Shown: in pieces, positions 2,022 to 10,482 of the stretch
Layout: each line of letters begins with the position of its first letter
How positions within the stretch are numbered: the stretch's first letter is position 1
From: a bacterium
Lineage (GTDB): Bacteria > Krumholzibacteriota > Krumholzibacteriia > LZORAL124-64-63
Direction: 5' to 3'
DNA: 10,482 nt
Assembly: GCA_018652925.1 (NCBI GenBank)
Contig: JABIBH010000033.1
Span: 1 to 10,482 of the forward strand
Position numbers and translations under genes: made by a program
Notes under the pieces: model-generated
Databases searched by the model: none
Told to the model about the DNA's origin: nothing
What the model saw: the letters and a program-made list of their open reading frames with translations, nothing else

Positions 2022-2057
2022 AACAAAAACCCGGAAGCGCCGCAGCACTTCCGGGTT
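2022..2057 (-). terminator. Intrinsic terminator of the porin-cytochrome operon
   Basis: There is a perfect 10-bp inverted repeat: AACCCGGAAG at 2028-2037 and CTTCCGGGTT at 2048-2057, with a 10-base loop. Read on the minus strand, the GC-rich stem runs into a T-run (GGGTTTTTGTTAA). It lies 19 bases after the TAG at 2077-2079. This placement supports 2077, and not the internal TGA at 2503, as the true end of the barrel gene. Confidence 0.9.
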
Positions 2058-2076: not shown

Positions 2077-4296
2077 CTAGAAGTCCACTGTCATTCCTGC
2101 ACTATAGATGGTCAGTTTGCCATCCAGATCTCCATAGACATAAGGTTGTCCATCGTCCAAATCCATTACGGTAATTGAACCATAGAGTCTTGAATCTCTG
2201 TCGATTTGGAATGACGCACCGTATGTCAAGCTTAGCATACGGTAGTCAAGGTCGCTGTATCCAGGCATGTTATCGAAGCTCACGTCTGCGTTTGCAGGGT
2301 GCTCTTCAGGCATTTCGAATACAAATTCTTCGTGAGATGCGTTTGACTCTGTGAGTGATCCGTCCATGTAGAAACGGAATCTCTCGGAAGCATTGATTGA
2401 TGTGTTAAAGAACAACACGCCTGCTTCACTTGTATAGTTTTGAACATCTTCCAGCGAATCATAGTGATGTAGCTCCGAACCGGAGCCTTCAATGTGACCC
2501 GCTCAGCCACCGAAGAGCGGAATGCACATTGATGCATTCGACTCAACAGAGTTAAATGAGTAACCCATAGTGACCATCATTTTGTCAGTTGGCGCCATCC
2601 ACAGTGTAGCACCAGGAGAGAAGACAGTACGAGTGAACTCATAAGTGTTCATCTCATCGTTTTTCTCATCGGCAAAATTCAAGTAACCGTTAAGTGACAT
2701 ACGAGGTGACAACTGATAAGAGCTGCGTAAAGCCAACTTGTGTGACTTGTTTGGCATGCTAGTTGCGTTGCCAGTGCGCAGGCGCTGGAAGTAATAAACA
2801 TTCCCGTTACCAGGAAGAGTATATGATTCCCCGCGCATCTCATCTTCGCAGATACCAAGGATATTCATATACTGTTTGTTGACATTAGTGAAGGTGTAGG
2901 TCATGCGGGCATTACCCTTGTTACCTAAACGTTTACGATAAGCAGCACGGAAGCGATCCGTGGTAGTTTCCCATGGTTGAGCTTCAGAACCAACACCAAT
3001 GATTTCTTCGCCAGCAGCAAAGTAAGTTGTTTGAGTTTGATTCATAGCAGCACGGTCAATGACCTTGTGACGCCAGTCAAAGCTCAACAAGCTACCTTTG
3101 GCCAGACGATAGCGAAGTGCCATGTCGGTTTGCAGAACTTCACGATTGGCAGCGGAAACCCGTGTCCAATCAAAGTCCTGATCGCCACCAGGGCGGCCTT
3201 CACGATATATGTCCATGTCTACAAAGTAGTCATCAACTTTTACGTCATATTTCAGAACGCGAGCTGTAAGACGAGTCTTCTTGTTAGGTTTTGCAACCCA
3301 ACCAGCAGCCCAAGCATCCATTGTACCAACTACACTTGTGCCCATGTTCTCATTGCGAGTGCTGGTGAAAGCACTTTTCAGAACATTTTTCTCATTTACA
3401 TCAAAGTTCAACTTCAGAGCGTGCGAACGCTTTTCAGTTGTAGTTCCTTGATCAAATGGCATTGGTTCTTCCTGGTAAGCCAGGCGAGATCCAAATTCAA
3501 CATTGTAGTTTGATGATTCGTAAGTGTCTCCACGAGTAGGGTGCATTGCACGGTCATACACGTGAGTGTTTGCAGATGATCTATCAGTGTAATCAACTGC
3601 TCCCAAGTTGTATGAGAATGACAATTTACCCATCGCGCCTTCAAGACCAAAGTCCCAGGTGCGTGTCTGATTGTTTACTTCAGTACCCTGACCTTCAACA
3701 TGACAGAATGTACAGTGGTCCAATGTCATCGACTGTTTCCAACCATGTTTGTTCTGGTCGGTGTAGTTGACATACATTTTTCCATTTTCAAATGTGTCGA
3801 TGTTGTATGCGGCGTGAGCCTCAATCTTCTCGTAGTTGATTGAGTATTGGCCGTTAGGATCATGGTCTGTGTAATAAACCTGTTTTCCTGCTGGTCCACC
3901 TTCACCGTTAGCTTCCTTGGCCTGCATATTTGTCAGCAGGTCATGGTCAAGGCGGTGCAGGAATGATTGATAGTTGAAACTGGCTGATACTCTACCGTTT
4001 GCATTCGTACTGAATCCAAATGATTTTGTATCCTGGTCCATATATTGACCGTTCATCTCAAACAAGGCATGGTCTGTGCCGCCATTCATGTCGAATGTTG
4101 CATCAGCCTGGTATCCATCGGAACTGTTAGTGCCGGTGAATTCGCCAACCTTGCCAAAGAAGCCAGCCTCGTCGTAGTAATGGAATCCGACAGTAGAAGA
4201 TCCGCTAATAAAAGCAGCTCCCTCATCGGCCATCACTGTGGCACAGAATCCCATAAGGATTACTGCCGCCAACATTGTGACAAAGCTCTTTTTCAT
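2077..4296 (-). CDS. MtrB/PioB-like outer-membrane beta-barrel, probable selenoprotein (in-frame UGA, Sec598)
   Basis: A 739-residue barrel if the UGA at 2503-2505 is read through. The signal peptide is residues 1-23 (MKKSFVTMLAA to VMA). After it come many alternating amphipathic strands with aromatic ends, short turns, long polar loops and a final KLTIYSAGMTVDF, whose terminal Phe is the usual BAM signature. In MtrB/PioB systems the barrel sheathes a decaheme cytochrome across the outer membrane. The gene for such a cytochrome ends 16 bases upstream, so the two genes form one operon. The ATG at 4296 is chosen for its AGAGAGG site and for the signal peptide. A CxxCH (CTFCH, 195-199) lies in a long loop, which is odd for a barrel. 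A stop at the UGA would leave 597 residues lacking the last strands. Automatic annotation would probably give two fragments (2503-4296 and 2077-2418). A nonsense mutation is the alternative. The similarity is a family-level reading, not a search result. Confidence 0.8.
2454..2502 (-). promoter_or_regulatory. Candidate bacterial SECIS element
   Basis: On the minus strand, the first 8 bases after TGA (GCGGGTCA, 2495-2502) pair fully with TGATTCGC (2454-2461), including two G-U pairs. Above an unpaired region, GGCTCC pairs with GGAGCT (2471-2487, one G-U pair) and closes a GGTTC loop, or a GTT loop if G and C also pair. The loop begins 21 bases after the UGA and has G in its first two positions. 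Known bacterial SECIS elements are likewise a stem-loop just after the UGA with a G-containing small loop that binds SelB, at roughly this distance. The pairing is read from sequence; its function is inferred. Confidence 0.6.
2503..2505 (-). other. In-frame UGA, putative selenocysteine codon
   Basis: TGA at codon 598 of the barrel gene. The flanking translation is SNASMCIPLFGG before it and AGHIEGSGSELHHY after it. The frame stays open for 141 more codons of barrel-like protein. Cys591 lies seven residues before the UGA, giving a C-x6-U arrangement. Ordinary decoding ends here. UGA is used as a normal stop in the brnT-like gene and in the transglutaminase-like gene, and Trp is UGG, so a changed genetic code is not a good explanation. 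Confidence 0.6.
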
Positions 4297-4312: not shown

Positions 4313-5266
4313 CTAGCGAACAAGTGCGCGCCCTTGTCCAGGGATAGACTGTGATGGTAAATCAGTACCGTGAACAGTCTGGTGACACTGTGAACACTTA
4401 GTTAGCATTACTTGTTTGAAACTGTCGGCTTGTGAGTGACCGCTAAGTCCTTCATAACCGGCGTAGTCGTCGAGTGTGTTTTGAGGGGCACTATAATCGC
4501 CCTCCCAAGACATCAGCCCAGCATGGAAGTGTGGTTGGTGGCATTGCAAGCATAAGAACGGCTCGTTCTGTATTAGCAGGTTGTTTGCCACTGTTCCGTG
4601 AGCATCGTGACAGATGCCACAATCTTCTTCAACTGGAGAGTGTTCAAAGATGAATGGTCCTCTGTGCTGTCCGTGACAGCTGAGGCACAATTCACGACTC
4701 TCTTCACCGGCGAAAATACCCTGGTAGTTTCCACCATGAACATCATGGCAATCTACACAGGTCATAAAGCCTTCTTCAAGGGGATGATGACTAGGCATCA
4801 TGTTTTTTGTTGCTTGTTCCTGGTGGCAGCTACCGCAAAGATCATTGACATTATCAATGAGCATTGACTCACCATGAACAGAGTGGCAACTCATACATGA
4901 AAGATCGGCAGCAGCGTGTGCGCCCATATCCCAGTTCATTGTAACACCAGTTTTGTGGCATTCCAGACACATATCAGAAGCGTCGTCATTCAGATCACCG
5001 CTATAAGCGATAATATCTGCAGGCTCTTCTGACTCAGAGTGTACGCTACCAGCACCGTGACAGGATTCGCATCCTGTTATAGCGCTTGTCAGGCGGAATT
5101 CGCCAATCCGTCCATGAACGGATTTTTCAAATTCACCTTCAAGGGTATCGTGACATTCGTAACATATGTCTGCACCCACATAACCAGCATTTGCACTGCT
5201 GATTGGGAAGGCAACAGCCAACCCCATCAGTACTAGCAGTACGGCTTTAGTGGTACAGCGATCCAT
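4313..5266 (-). CDS. Periplasmic decaheme c-type cytochrome, MtrA/DmsE/PioA family
   Basis: A 317-residue exported protein with ten CxxCH motifs (residues 35, 66, 100, 124, 144, 170, 194, 216, 239 and 291). Ten hemes and about 320 residues are the family norm. Family marks include RGPFIFEHSPVEEDCGICHDAHG (seventh to eighth heme) and a C-terminal HGTD(L)P segment with a basic end. The signal peptide is about residues 1-27 (hydrophobic core AVLLVLMGLAVAF, cleavage after SANA). In MtrA-type systems the protein forms a heme wire inserted into the MtrB barrel, and that barrel gene follows here. I start at ATG 5266, preceded by AGGTGAGG at good spacing. The in-frame GTG four codons earlier lies inside that ribosome-binding site. 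Maturation would need the cytochrome c (Ccm-type) system, not in view. Which of the MtrA, DmsE or PioA roles it has cannot be told. Confidence 0.95.
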   Translation of the reverse strand: MDRCTTKAVLLVLMGLAVAFPISSANAGYVGADICYECHDTLEGEFEKSVHGRIGEFRLTSAITGCESCHGAGSVHSESEEPADIIAYSGDLNDDASDMCLECHKTGVTMNWDMGAHAAADLSCMSCHSVHGESMLIDNVNDLCGSCHQEQATKNMMPSHHPLEEGFMTCVDCHDVHGGNYQGIFAGEESRELCLSCHGQHRGPFIFEHSPVEEDCGICHDAHGTVANNLLIQNEPFLCLQCHQPHFHAGLMSWEGDYSAPQNTLDDYAGYEGLSGHSQADSFKQVMLTKCSQCHQTVHGTDLPSQSIPGQGRALVR

Positions 5267-5310
5267 TTCTGACCTCACCTTAAGTTTGGTGATAAATGTT
5301 ATGTATTCCG

Positions 5311-5647: not shown

Positions 5648-8440
5648 ATGAACAGACCAGTCTACTTACTCTGTTTGCTTTTTGTTATAGCATTTACCGC
5701 TCCTTTAGCAGCACAAGATGCTGATGCATGTCTTGATTGCCACGATGATCCCGAGTGGACAGAAAATCGAGAAGGTAGAGTTGTGTCAATGCATGTGGAC
5801 ATTGAGCAATTCAACAACTCGATTCACGGTAAAGAAGAAGTTACCTGTGTTGATTGTCATGCTGATCTCGATGGTTTCGATCTTGATGAGGATGAGCATC
5901 CAGAGCGATTGGAACCAGTAGATTGTGCTGAATGTCATGATGATGTTGCCGACATTTATATGGCGAGTATGCATGGTACCGAGATTGATAACGGAAATCC
6001 ACATGCACCTCATTGCTGGGACTGTCATGGTGCACATAATATTCTGCCTCCCCAGAACCCGGATTCAAAAGTTAATAAATTCAATATTCCAATTATGTGT
6101 GGAAGTTGTCATAAAGAGGGTGCTGCTGTTGCAAGAATGTACGACATCCCTCAAGACAGTATCCTGACCAACTACTCATTAAGTATTCACGGTGAGGGGC
6201 TATATAAAAGAGGTCTGACAATTTCTGCCGTTTGCTCGGATTGTCATACTGCACACTCGGTATTACCACACACTGATCCTTTTTCTTCTATTCACAGGGA
6301 TAATGTAGCTGGAATGTGCCAGCAGTGTCACGGCAGAATTGAACAGGTTCACCAGAAAATAATTGCTGGCGAGCTCTGGGAATCAGAACCGGATAAAGTA
6401 CCAGCCTGTATTGAATGTCACCAGCCTCATAAAGTTAGAATGGTTTACTATGAAGAAGGTGTTTCATCCAAGGAATGCCTTGATTGCCACGGTAAACATG
6501 ATCTGACAACAACCCGTAAAGGCGAGATTGTCTCTTTGTATGCAGATGCTGCAGTTATGCATGATTCAGCTCACAAAGATGTATCTTGTGCACAATGTCA
6601 CACAGGTGCAACCCCATCCCTTGAAAGATCATGCTCAACCATAATTGACAAAGTCGATTGTTCCATCTGCCATGCTGATCAAGCTATACAGTATGCTTCA
6701 AGTACACATGGTCAATTACTGGCAAAAGGTGATTCTGACGCACCGGATTGTGACTCTTGTCACGGAACCCACGACATTATGAGTAACAGTGACGTAGATT
6801 CTCCAACCTACGTCAGTAACATCGCTACTCTTTGTGGCAAATGCCATGGCTCTGGAGAAGTTGTTGCCAATCGTCGTGAAGATGGTATGGCTAATATGGT
6901 TGAAAACTATGAAGCAAGTGTTCATGGCCGTGCAATGCAGGAAAGTGGACTTGTAGTTTCTGCTACCTGTACTCATTGCCATACTTCTCACCAGGTGCTT
7001 CCTCAAGATAACCTGGAGTCAAGCATACACAGGGCCAATATTGTTGATACTTGCTCCCTGTGCCACAAAGGTATTTTCGAGACCTTTAAAAACAGTATTC
7101 ACTTTACTGGTGAAGAGACTGAAAATGCCAAGTTGCCAATGTGTGACGATTGCCATACTTCACATACAATTTCCAGAACAGCTGGAACAGGATTCAAGCT
7201 GGAAGTAGTTGAGTCTTGCGGTCATTGTCATGAAGATGTTATGGAAACATATTTTGAGACTTTCCACGGCAAAGTATCCGGCCTTGGTTTCGATGCTGCC
7301 GCTAAATGTCAAGACTGTCACGGTGCTCATAATGTGCTTTCACTATTGGATCCGGACTCAATGACTTCACGATCAAACATTGTCGCCACCTGTGGCCAAT
7401 GCCATGAAGGTAGCCATGAGCGATTTGCCGGATTTATGCCTCATGCAACACATAGGGACAAGGAAAAGTATCCAGGAGTTTACTGGACATGGTTTGCAAT
7501 GACTGGATTGCTAATCGGGACATTCTCATTCTTTGGACTTCATACATTGATGTGGATGCCAAGGTCATTCAAGGCAATGAGGCACGGTAGAAAGCTTCGG
7601 GAAAAATCCAAGGGCCAAAAAGAGGTTAAACGATTCTCAAGGCTTCACCGACAGCTGCATGTTCTGATTATTATTAGTTTCTTATCACTTGCTGTCACCG
7701 GTATGACCCTGAAGTACTCCTACCTGCCTTGGGCTCAATTTTTATCGAATTTCCTTGGTGGGTTTGCTGTAACCGGGTTTGTGCACAGGCTTGGAGCCGT
7801 AATCACATTCTTCTACTTTGCAGCACACTTGGTACAATTGACTATGATGTGGAAAAGATCAAAAAAGAGCATAAAGGAATTCTTGCTAGGACCGGACTCA
7901 ATGGTTCCAAATGCACGCGATGGTCACGAGCTTGTCCAGACAATAAAATGGTTTATCGGAATGGGCCACAGGCCAAGATATGGTCGATGGACTTACTGGG
8001 AGAAGTTTGACTACTTTGCTGTTTTCTGGGGTGTTGCAATGATTGGATTTACTGGTCTAACACTATGGTTCCCTGAATTCTTTACTAGATTCTTGCCGGG
8101 ATCATTTATCAATATTGCGACAGTAATTCACTCTGACGAGGCGTTGTTGGCAACTGGATTTATCTTTACAATCCACTTCTTTAACACTCACTTCCGTCCG
8201 GATAAATTCCCAATGGATCCTGTTATCTTTACAGGAAGTATTCCGTTGGAAGAGTTCAAAGAAGATCGACCAAGAGAATATGAGGAACTTGTTGAAAGTG
8301 GTAAATTGGAAGAACTTCTGGTCGATCCAAAGCCAACCTACATTGTGAGATGGCGTAAGGTGTTTGGGTTCGTAGCGCTGTTTATTGGACTGTCGCTTGT
8401 AATAATCATAATTGTAGCCCAGTTGATTGGTTATCATTAG
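5648..8440 (+). CDS. 19-heme cytochrome c fused to a cytochrome-b membrane domain (CbcL-like layout)
   Basis: A 930-residue inner-membrane protein. The signal peptide is about residues 1-22. Nineteen CxxCH motifs follow between residues 28 and 586, then about six membrane helices (612-635, 668-690, 705-735, 787-809, 823-848, 905-928). The membrane part resembles FdnI/HydC-type diheme cytochrome b. Candidate b-heme His residues are in HRQLH (667-671), [16 protein letters not shown] (712-727) and [23 protein letters not shown] (827-849). Geobacter CbcL has the same order of parts with fewer hemes and links menaquinol to periplasmic cytochromes, so that role is inferred here. The c part contains an internal duplication of an eight-heme block. 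I use ATG 5648, seven bases after AGGAAGA; a TTG one codon upstream is less likely. It is divergent from the decaheme/barrel operon. Electron direction and exact donor are not visible. Confidence 0.92.
5846..7231 (+). repeat. Duplicated eight-heme block within the 19-heme protein
   Basis: Hemes 2-9 (first Cys at residues 67, 93, 123, 151, 196, 224, 254, 277) match hemes 10-17 (314, 338, 368, 396, 441, 469, 499, 524). The six central pairs are all offset by exactly 245 residues, and the outer two by 247. Sequence agrees too, for example [21 protein letters not shown] against [21 protein letters not shown]. Within each block a two-heme unit with 28-residue spacing occurs twice, and once more at 554-586. 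Confidence 0.9.
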
Positions 8441-8494: not shown

Positions 8495-9946
8495 ATGAAA
8501 CGACTAATTACTATATCTATATTAGTAATACTGATGTCTATGTCTTTATTTGCAGAAGACTCAATCAAGTTTAACGGAACCTACTGGTATATTCTGGATA
8601 ACATTACCGAAGTTGGCCCAGACGCTGAATTCAAACTCTGGATGTCGATACCAACCAGTGACGCCTCGCAGGATCTTGTGATTCGCAACATATACCCAAA
8701 ACCGGCAGAAATCTCTGAAGATACTGAACAAGGCAATCGGATTGGAATCTGGAGTCTTGTACCGGTGGAAGATCAACTAACTTTACTTGTTAAAATTGAA
8801 ATTAGCGGGGAGTCGCACCCGGTTTTAACAAATATCAATGCAGCCGATGTAAAGCCGTACAACAAAGATTCAAAATTGTTCAAGCGATTTACAGCTTCAG
8901 GTCAGTGGATTGATACTGAAGGAGCAGCTTTGGACAGAGCTCTTTCAATTGTTGGCAACCAGACAAACCCATATCTTCAGGCAAAAGCTATATTCAGTTG
9001 GATGAATGATAATATGAATTTTATTCCAGCTAACCAGGCAGAACGGTCTGCGAAAACAACCTTGATGCTCAGAAGCGGAGATTGTGGTCAGTATTCAATT
9101 CTTTTTACTGCAATGTGCAGGTCCCTGGAAATACCAACAAGGGTTGTCAGTGGATTCTGGATTAATGGCGGACATCATCGCTGGTCTGAATTTTATATTG
9201 AGGGTGAGGGCTGGATTCCTGTAGATGTTGCAGCTGCTCAAATTCTAATGCCTGATCATGTAGTTTTTTCTGAAGCTGAAAAAAACAGCTTTCTTGAACA
9301 GAAAAAAATTACAACAAGTAATCCTGAATGGTTTTTTGGTAACAGTCCAGCAAGTCTGATAAGAGTAACTACTGGAAACAATATTACAGTTCCTTCAAAG
9401 ACAGGAAAAACTGCGCGATTTGTTTCACTCGAACCGGGTGGAGTAAATGCCTTTCCAGAAGCTTCAGAGGTTTATGGTCTGAATAATGATGTTGTTCAGG
9501 GTAGTTATTTCCTAACCGGGAAACAGTCAAATAATAGTGATTATGCTCACAACATTGCCCACCAGAAGCTTGCATCAAAATTTTTCAAACATGGTCTGCT
9601 TGATATTGTTGAGCGAGGTTGTTTATTTGCACAGGAAGAAGATCCTGATGGCGTAGCAAGCTGGATTAACCTGGGAAAAGTTGCTTTACGCAAAGGAAAA
9701 TACCCCAAAGCTGAAGCATATTTCAAGCGGGCAATGCGGGGTACTGTAACAGATAGAAAAGATAAACTTGAGAGTATAATCTGGGTTCACAATTATCTTG
9801 GTAATTGTTATGATTTGATTGGTCGCAGGGATATGGCTCTGGAGCAGTACAGGAAGGTACTCGCATTAGATAATAACTACAGAGGTGCTGTAGCTTATGC
9901 TGAAAAGTTCAGCAACAGACCGTTCATGAAGTCAGATTTTGAGTGA
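8495..9946 (+). CDS. Exported transglutaminase-like protein with C-terminal TPR repeats
   Basis: A 483-residue protein with a signal peptide (about 1-20, cleavage before EDSIKF). It has an N-terminal beta-rich part (25-135) and a transglutaminase-like core at about 155-250. The core shows the triad in family context: Cys197 in RSGDCGQY, His228 in HHRWSEFY and Asp244 in GWIPVDVA. Two TPR-like helical pairs follow at about 388-412 and 430-462. Proteins of this superfamily are often proteases or acyl-transfer enzymes rather than true crosslinkers. A complete triad suggests an active enzyme in the periplasm. AGGAG (8484-8488) gives a clear ribosome-binding site, and the gene follows the 19-heme gene by 54 bases, so it is probably in the same operon. 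A role in assembling or processing the cytochromes is a guess from position. No CxxCH is present. Confidence 0.85.
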   Translation: MKRLITISILVILMSMSLFAEDSIKFNGTYWYILDNITEVGPDAEFKLWMSIPTSDASQDLVIRNIYPKPAEISEDTEQGNRIGIWSLVPVEDQLTLLVKIEISGESHPVLTNINAADVKPYNKDSKLFKRFTASGQWIDTEGAALDRALSIVGNQTNPYLQAKAIFSWMNDNMNFIPANQAERSAKTTLMLRSGDCGQYSILFTAMCRSLEIPTRVVSGFWINGGHHRWSEFYIEGEGWIPVDVAAAQILMPDHVVFSEAEKNSFLEQKKITTSNPEWFFGNSPASLIRVTTGNNITVPSKTGKTARFVSLEPGGVNAFPEASEVYGLNNDVVQGSYFLTGKQSNNSDYAHNIAHQKLASKFFKHGLLDIVERGCLFAQEEDPDGVASWINLGKVALRKGKYPKAEAYFKRAMRGTVTDRKDKLESIIWVHNYLGNCYDLIGRRDMALEQYRKVLALDNNYRGAVAYAEKFSNRPFMKSDFE

Positions 9947-10127: not shown

Positions 10128-10482
10128 ATGTCGCGCTCAGTTTTTAAATTAATTCTTTTGGTCTTGCTCCTTCCTGTCATTTGCTTGTCACAGGAAAACG
10201 ATATCTGCGCAGATTGTCATACTGACTCAGGTGGTGATCCAGTTGAGGTTTCAACTGCATCATTAATGGGTTCTGCTCATGAAGATTTTGATTGTGTGGA
10301 CTGTCACTATTTAGAAGATCCTGAAGATCATGCTGAAGACCTTGATGATGTGGATTGTGGCGAATGCCATGATGAGGTGTCGGAACAATATACTATACAT
10401 GGTAGAGCAGTAGTTGGTGAATCTGCTTACGCACCCCAATGTAAAGATTGTCATGGAACTCACCGGATTTTACCGCCTAGAC
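10128..10482 (+). CDS. Exported multiheme c-type cytochrome, N-terminal part (cut by window end)
   Basis: 118 codons are visible with no stop before the window end. The signal peptide is about residues 1-21 (core LILLVLLLPVICL). Four CxxCH motifs follow: CADCH (27), CVDCH (56), CGECH (77) and CKDCH (105). The pattern follows the start of the 19-heme protein upstream. CGECHDEVSEQY matches its [12 protein letters not shown], and APQCKDCHGTHRILPP matches its [16 protein letters not shown]. It is therefore a paralogue, and may or may not carry the same membrane domain. The ATG at 10128 lies nine bases after GGAGG (10114-10118); two nearer ATGs (10112 and 10120) lead into other frames. Acidic residues are frequent between hemes (LEDPEDHAEDLDD). 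Confidence 0.9.
   Translation, partial: MSRSVFKLILLVLLLPVICLSQENDICADCHTDSGGDPVEVSTASLMGSAHEDFDCVDCHYLEDPEDHAEDLDDVDCGECHDEVSEQYTIHGRAVVGESAYAPQCKDCHGTHRILPPR

Follow-up and report, generated by a model that had tools for sequence, protein, structure and literature searches.

A GSU2204-family outer-membrane barrel gene with an in-frame UGA that is very likely read as selenocysteine

A gene on the minus strand of the window (the whole stretch of 10,482 nucleotides analysed here) raises the question of whether the barrel of an outer-membrane electron conduit can contain selenocysteine (Sec), and what the residue would do there. The gene extends from an ATG at 4294-4296 to a TAG stop at 2077-2079 (2077-4296, minus strand), and its frame contains a single TGA, at codon 598 counted from this ATG (2503-2505, minus strand). 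Read-through translation adds 141 codons (2080-2502, minus strand) that comprise the final barrel strands and end in a C-terminal Phe, resulting in a protein of 739 residues. An intrinsic terminator (2028-2057, minus strand), formed by a 13-pair stem that runs from 2057 to 2028 and a T-rich tail, lies 19 bases past the stop codon. The TGA, the further open codons ending in Phe and the spacing of the stop and terminator had all been pointed out in a preliminary description of this DNA, and each was confirmed. The source assembly amounts to 1.9 Mb in 420 contigs and is 76% complete.

Comparison with family models places the protein, with a score of 592.7 bits against a cutoff of 350, in NCBIfam NF041027, the "GSU2204 family CXXCH-containing (seleno)protein". 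The alignment spans residues 11-597 of the protein and positions 2-580 of the 580 in the model, and the end of the model directly precedes the UGA. Pfam MtrB_PioB (PF11854) reports 15.2 bits, under its gathering cutoff of 23. Of the earlier assignment to an MtrB/PioB-like electron-conduit barrel, the conduit barrel is retained, on the grounds of NF041027 and of the adjoining GSU2203-family decaheme cytochrome, whereas the generic Pfam family stays sub-threshold. The post-UGA part alone returns no NCBIfam model and no Pfam family above its cutoff, and an Rfam scan of the whole window reports nothing at gathering scores. The same description knew of no selenoprotein of this kind, but NCBIfam and two published catalogues list one. 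In their available text, the review PMC9312934 and the newer review PMC13188914 both count the family as predicted selenoproteins and describe it as an outer-membrane barrel of the MtrB/PioB family. PMC13188914 credits PMC2398784 for the prediction; the term "outer membrane" is absent from the main text of the latter as far as it could be searched, so the origin of the prediction is not confirmed there. The barrel selenoprotein family is thus already catalogued, though hardly studied.

Directly upstream of the barrel gene, positions 4313-5278 of the minus strand (likely ATG at 5266) encode a decaheme c-type cytochrome of the GSU2203 family, with 10 CxxCH motifs and a match to NF041028 (362.1 bits, cutoff 325); the DmsE-family model TIGR03508 also matches it. 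A multiheme frame is found upstream of the barrel in all 15 full-length loci, four partial loci being outside this count. Thirteen of these 15 frames contain 10 CxxCH, while the remaining two, with 4 and 8, are cut by the contig end. Inspection by eye detects no lipobox in the cytochrome of the window; a lipobox-like signal occurs in five genomes of other phyla (G385, G247, G100, G175, and G313; loci L028, L030, L031, L033, and L034), so the membrane side of the cytochrome may differ between genomes. The window contains further genes, all but one entry of which lie on the plus strand: the beta subunit of a sodium-pumping decarboxylase (157-1284; TIGR01109, 497.4 bits), a long protein in which 19 CxxCH motifs precede a membrane part resembling cytochrome b561 (5648-8440; sub-threshold Ni_hydr_CYTB), which is divergent from the conduit genes, a transglutaminase-core and TPR protein (8495-9946), and the start of another multiheme cytochrome (10128-10482). 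The minus-strand entry is a BrnT toxin/BrnA antitoxin pair (1315-1810; PF04365, 90.4 bits; PF14384, 26.5 bits for a cutoff of 26.1).

Relatives were collected in order to read the codon at the UGA column. When the read-through protein was searched against 80 genomes of the window's own phylum, 13 of them had a match, the own genome included; 12 of them carry exactly one TGA and no other stop. The thirteenth, the G074 copy (L036), has one TGA and two downstream in-frame TAA, and is either a decaying copy or affected by assembly errors. The family search over 387 genomes gave 39 matching genomes, 15 of them above the cutoff. The codon that follows the last NF041027 model position is TGA in all 19 loci that reach that far (one per genome), as well as in the second barrel copies of G385 and G175 and in seven more records from five further genomes. 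Two records of G391 are counted as one gene (the C153 record is cut off by the end of its contig, and C125 opens with the same stretch). Overall, TGA occupies the same column in 27 out of 27 family gene copies, from 24 genomes and four phyla as grouped by the search tool, and Cys in none. The alignment of homologues across the UGA, which had been proposed as a check, hence favours Sec. In other genera, the frame and its single TGA are kept at identities of 38-56% within the phylum and 21-25% outside. Two paralogous forms of the barrel are observed, one with mostly U-[AG]-G-H at the site and the other with U-A-G-[ST], G354 having U-A-N-I. The U-A-G-[ST] form (L087, L088, and L111) coexists with the main form in G385, G175, and G391.

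Further searches for relatives added no new family members. Single-sequence searches and searches with a 15-member profile, which reach only relatives sharing short words, return no full-length relative with a sense codon at the UGA column, at coverages of at most 81% of the query, and a search with the post-UGA part alone finds two fragments. When the open frames of eleven weak NF041027 hits were followed to their ends, none had the G-U-[AG]-G-H context; among them, L046 just terminates at a TGA, and the frame of L048 continues past the end of its contig. This reading excluded another thirteen weak rows, which had no locus. Database protein searches yielded 32, 2, and 34 hits, of which 41 distinct proteins cover the pre-UGA part (P0002 being that of the window). 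All but two of these (P0030 and P0032) end at the residue before the UGA, which is indirect evidence because the entries show no stop codon. Since 39 of the 41 stop at the UGA, the C-terminal fifth is missing from these 39, and their genes may be wrongly assessed in conduit surveys. C591 of the window protein is present in 38 of the 39 UGA-ending proteins, but 9 of the 15 records from outside the phylum lack it.

The sequence downstream of the UGA was analyzed for a bacterial SECIS element. The apical stem-loop is located at 2471-2487 (minus strand), with a GG-starting loop at 2481 and a hairpin energy of -9.8 kcal/mol, and the 48-nt fold after the UGA has an energy of -13.5. It can be drawn with six pairs and a GGTTC loop 21 nt past the TGA, or with seven pairs and a GTT loop at 22 nt. 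Both the hairpin and its energy satisfy the bSECIS constraints given in the available text of PMC13188914 (loop of 3-9 nt, stem of 4-16 bp, a G among the first two bases of the loop, a spacing of 16-37 nt from the UGA, energy of -7.5 or lower), a check that had also been suggested beforehand. All 27 family sites comply with the geometry, which alone says little because 2509 out of 4762 control windows, taken from the same genes before the UGA, comply as well. In contrast, a contiguous hairpin of -7.5 kcal/mol or lower is found at 23 of the 27 sites (weaker in G045, G175, G354, and G175b) versus 112 of the 4762 control windows. The energy of the 48-nt fold is -7.5 or lower at 26 of 27 sites, the exception being G354.

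Within the stem, 168 of 182 cells are paired over 26 sequences (12 from the own phylum and 14 others, G074 left out), while 5000 column shuffles average 123.3 paired cells and reach at most 139. This pooled test is helped by the differences between the two hairpin groups, and its slid control by stems centred by eye, and the energy comparison with control windows is the fairer control. Bases change and still pair at stem positions 1, 3, 4, and 5, with TA, TG, CG, GC, and AT at position 4 and CG, GC, AT, and GT at position 5. Taken separately, the hairpins of the other phyla have 86 of 98 cells paired versus a shuffle maximum of 82, while covariation among the own-phylum hairpins is not above the shuffles (82 of 84 cells, a level that shuffles reach at 82). 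Out of 21 sequences folded, the 48-base minimum-energy fold is devoid of the apical hairpin in G055 and G049. A two-tier stem-loop had been described after the TGA; its apical hairpin, with the GG-starting loop at 21 nt, is borne out, but the lower tier is not constant. Outside the apical hairpin, the minimum-energy folds vary from one relative to another, so that the support extends to the apical stem-loop only.

Regarding the machinery for Sec insertion, selA, selB, and selD are found in the window's genome. Its selD (L089, G000:C303) itself contains an in-frame TGA in the context SG-TGA-AAK, and is likely a second selenoprotein of this genome. The fourth gene that was to be looked for, selC, returns no tRNA-Sec above cutoff in this 76%-complete assembly, three weaker hits being tRNA-Trp, tRNA-Tyr, and tRNA-Leu, but tRNA-Sec is present in the genus-mate G046. 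Among the 19 member genomes, selB is above cutoff in 18, the exception being G175, where just part of it is seen (positions 187-580, 161.6 bits), and selD in all 19, with an internal TGA in 18 and a fragment in the remaining G062. The selA gene is found in 18 of the 19 (not in G175) versus 225 of the 387 genomes overall; within the own phylum its presence discriminates little, because nearly all genomes there have it. A tRNA-Sec is above cutoff in 16 of the 19, with the TCA anticodon assigned by ARAGORN in 17 of 17 loci checked, and the three member genomes lacking it are 75-82% complete.

These comparisons bear on what the UGA does. If it were a true stop, the functional protein would comprise 597 residues followed by an untranslated relic, as is implied by the gene predictions, which end there in the database proteins mentioned above. 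However, 26 of 27 copies keep the frame open past the TGA (G391 being read over two overlapping contigs), the final F739 is invariant in 15 of 15 full-length members, the barrel would be devoid of its last strands, and a strong hairpin follows the codon in 23 of 27 copies. Moreover, the window gene and that of its genus-mate differ at 33/11/65 first, second, and third codon positions before the UGA and at 1/2/10 after it, and the third-position bias after the UGA is seen in all four pairs compared. Because of this bias, the post-UGA part behaves as a translated and constrained protein, and we regard a true stop as very improbable. A genome-wide reassignment of UGA to Trp or Gly, with no Sec involved, would fit the open frame, the frame being open whatever residue TGA encodes, but it is at odds with the gene at 8495-9946, which ends in TGA, with other window genes whose family-model matches (TIGR01109 and NF041028) are complete with no TGA read, and with a TGA kept at one column of the family across four phyla in the company of selA, selB, and selD; its probability is very low. 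Lastly, an assembly in 420 contigs might harbour a point mutation or a sequencing error at this codon, but the same TGA in 26 other copies from 23 other genomes refutes this explanation, which retains practically no weight. UGA598 is thus very likely read as selenocysteine, judging from sequence comparison, and the original proposal of Sec in the barrel finds support in the unanimous UGA column, in the hairpin, and in selA, selB, and selD.

Beyond Sec598, the residues invariant in the 15 full-length members are C195, C198, and H199, which form a CxxCH heme c motif within the barrel protein (3700-3714, minus strand), C483 (2848-2850, minus strand), G600, H601, and F739. A PDB profile search reports no solved relative of the barrel, its best match being an antibody (E 0.44), and the strands of residues 151-739 were picked by hand. 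In this hand-made count, all loops of at least 9 residues are on one side and all turns of at most 6 residues on the other, and the CxxCH, C483, and Sec598 are all located in long loops. If the C-terminus faces the periplasm, as it does in known barrels, the face carrying them would be extracellular, an argument that is partly circular. What is new here with respect to the catalogued family is that no Cys form is seen, and that Sec appears to share one barrel face with a heme motif and a Cys that are both invariant, as judged from the hand-made strand counting.

Taken together, we consider it highly probable that the gene encodes a 739-residue selenoprotein barrel of the GSU2204 family, which pairs with the decaheme cytochrome as a conduit and acquires its Sec via SelB, tRNA-Sec, and the stem-loop. 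SelB and tRNA-Sec would decode UGA598 under the direction of the stem-loop 21 nt downstream, and the read-through would supply the last strands and the C-terminal Phe needed for barrel assembly. The barrel, predicted to bear a heme, would then assemble with the cytochrome encoded upstream into a porin-cytochrome conduit for extracellular electron transfer, in which Sec would most likely serve as a redox or ligand site beside the loop heme. The residue may also be correctly assigned and yet have a structural or metal- or heme-ligating function, for instance by bonding to Cys483 or by coordinating the loop heme axially, instead of a catalytic one. The invariance of Cys483, Sec598, and the CxxCH in 15 of 15 members and their placement, as counted from the strands, in long loops on the same face are in line with such a function; in contrast, the PDB search offers no solved relative to back it, and the absence of any Cys form is harder to explain. 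We hold it to be plausible, though somewhat short of an even chance.

Barrels of porin-cytochrome conduits are usually regarded as insulating sleeves. An electron-conduit barrel that keeps Sec, with no Cys form in any copy read, is an interesting puzzle. Tentatively, and with considerable doubt, we propose that this may be an obligate-Sec conduit, in which Sec would not be replaceable by Cys and would constitute, with the loop heme c and the invariant Cys, a redox site at the outer face, the barrel being an active terminal reductase or relay and not a passive sleeve. If this were true, the strictly kept Sec and the heme would make the barrel a redox partner, and could link extracellular electron transfer to selenium supply. 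The family owes its name to the Geobacter protein GSU2204, which belongs to a laboratory strain and in which the Sec question is directly testable.

Several known systems resemble the one described here. As in MtrB/PioB systems, an outer-membrane barrel adjoins a decaheme cytochrome, but the window barrel scores under the Pfam cutoff and has a CxxCH and a Sec, neither of which is known from MtrB and PioB. With the GSU2204 family (NF041027) it shares a score far over the cutoff, the CxxCH in the barrel, and the GSU2203-family neighbour, and no clear departure from that family is seen, GSU2204 itself being outside the comparison. According to the available text of PMC4070692, GSU2203 of G. sulfurreducens is up 2.68 fold with hematite and 1.65 fold with magnetite, and GSU2204 is up 2.36 and 1.53 fold, respectively; GSU2203 is named OmcK there and in PMC13194489. 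PMC10553843 reports a homologous OmcKL conduit from syntrophic sulfate reducers, and "seleno" returns no hit in its available text. The string "OMCL" in PMC12977616, as far as its text is available, denotes a clustering algorithm and not OmcL. No treatment of the role of Sec in a GSU2204-family conduit was found in the accessible text of the open-licence literature searched. The OmcK/OmcL conduit of Geobacter and of the syntrophic sulfate reducers has, like the window, a barrel beside a multiheme cytochrome; the available text of PMC10553843 describes this cytochrome as extracellular, whereas that of the window has no lipobox by eye. Lastly, in the available text of PMC5877670, the ExtKL selenocytochrome and the ExtI porin of Geobacter likewise bring together a porin and a predicted Sec protein within one electron-transfer cluster, but it is the cytochrome that carries the predicted Sec, and ExtI is said to have no significant homology to MtrB.
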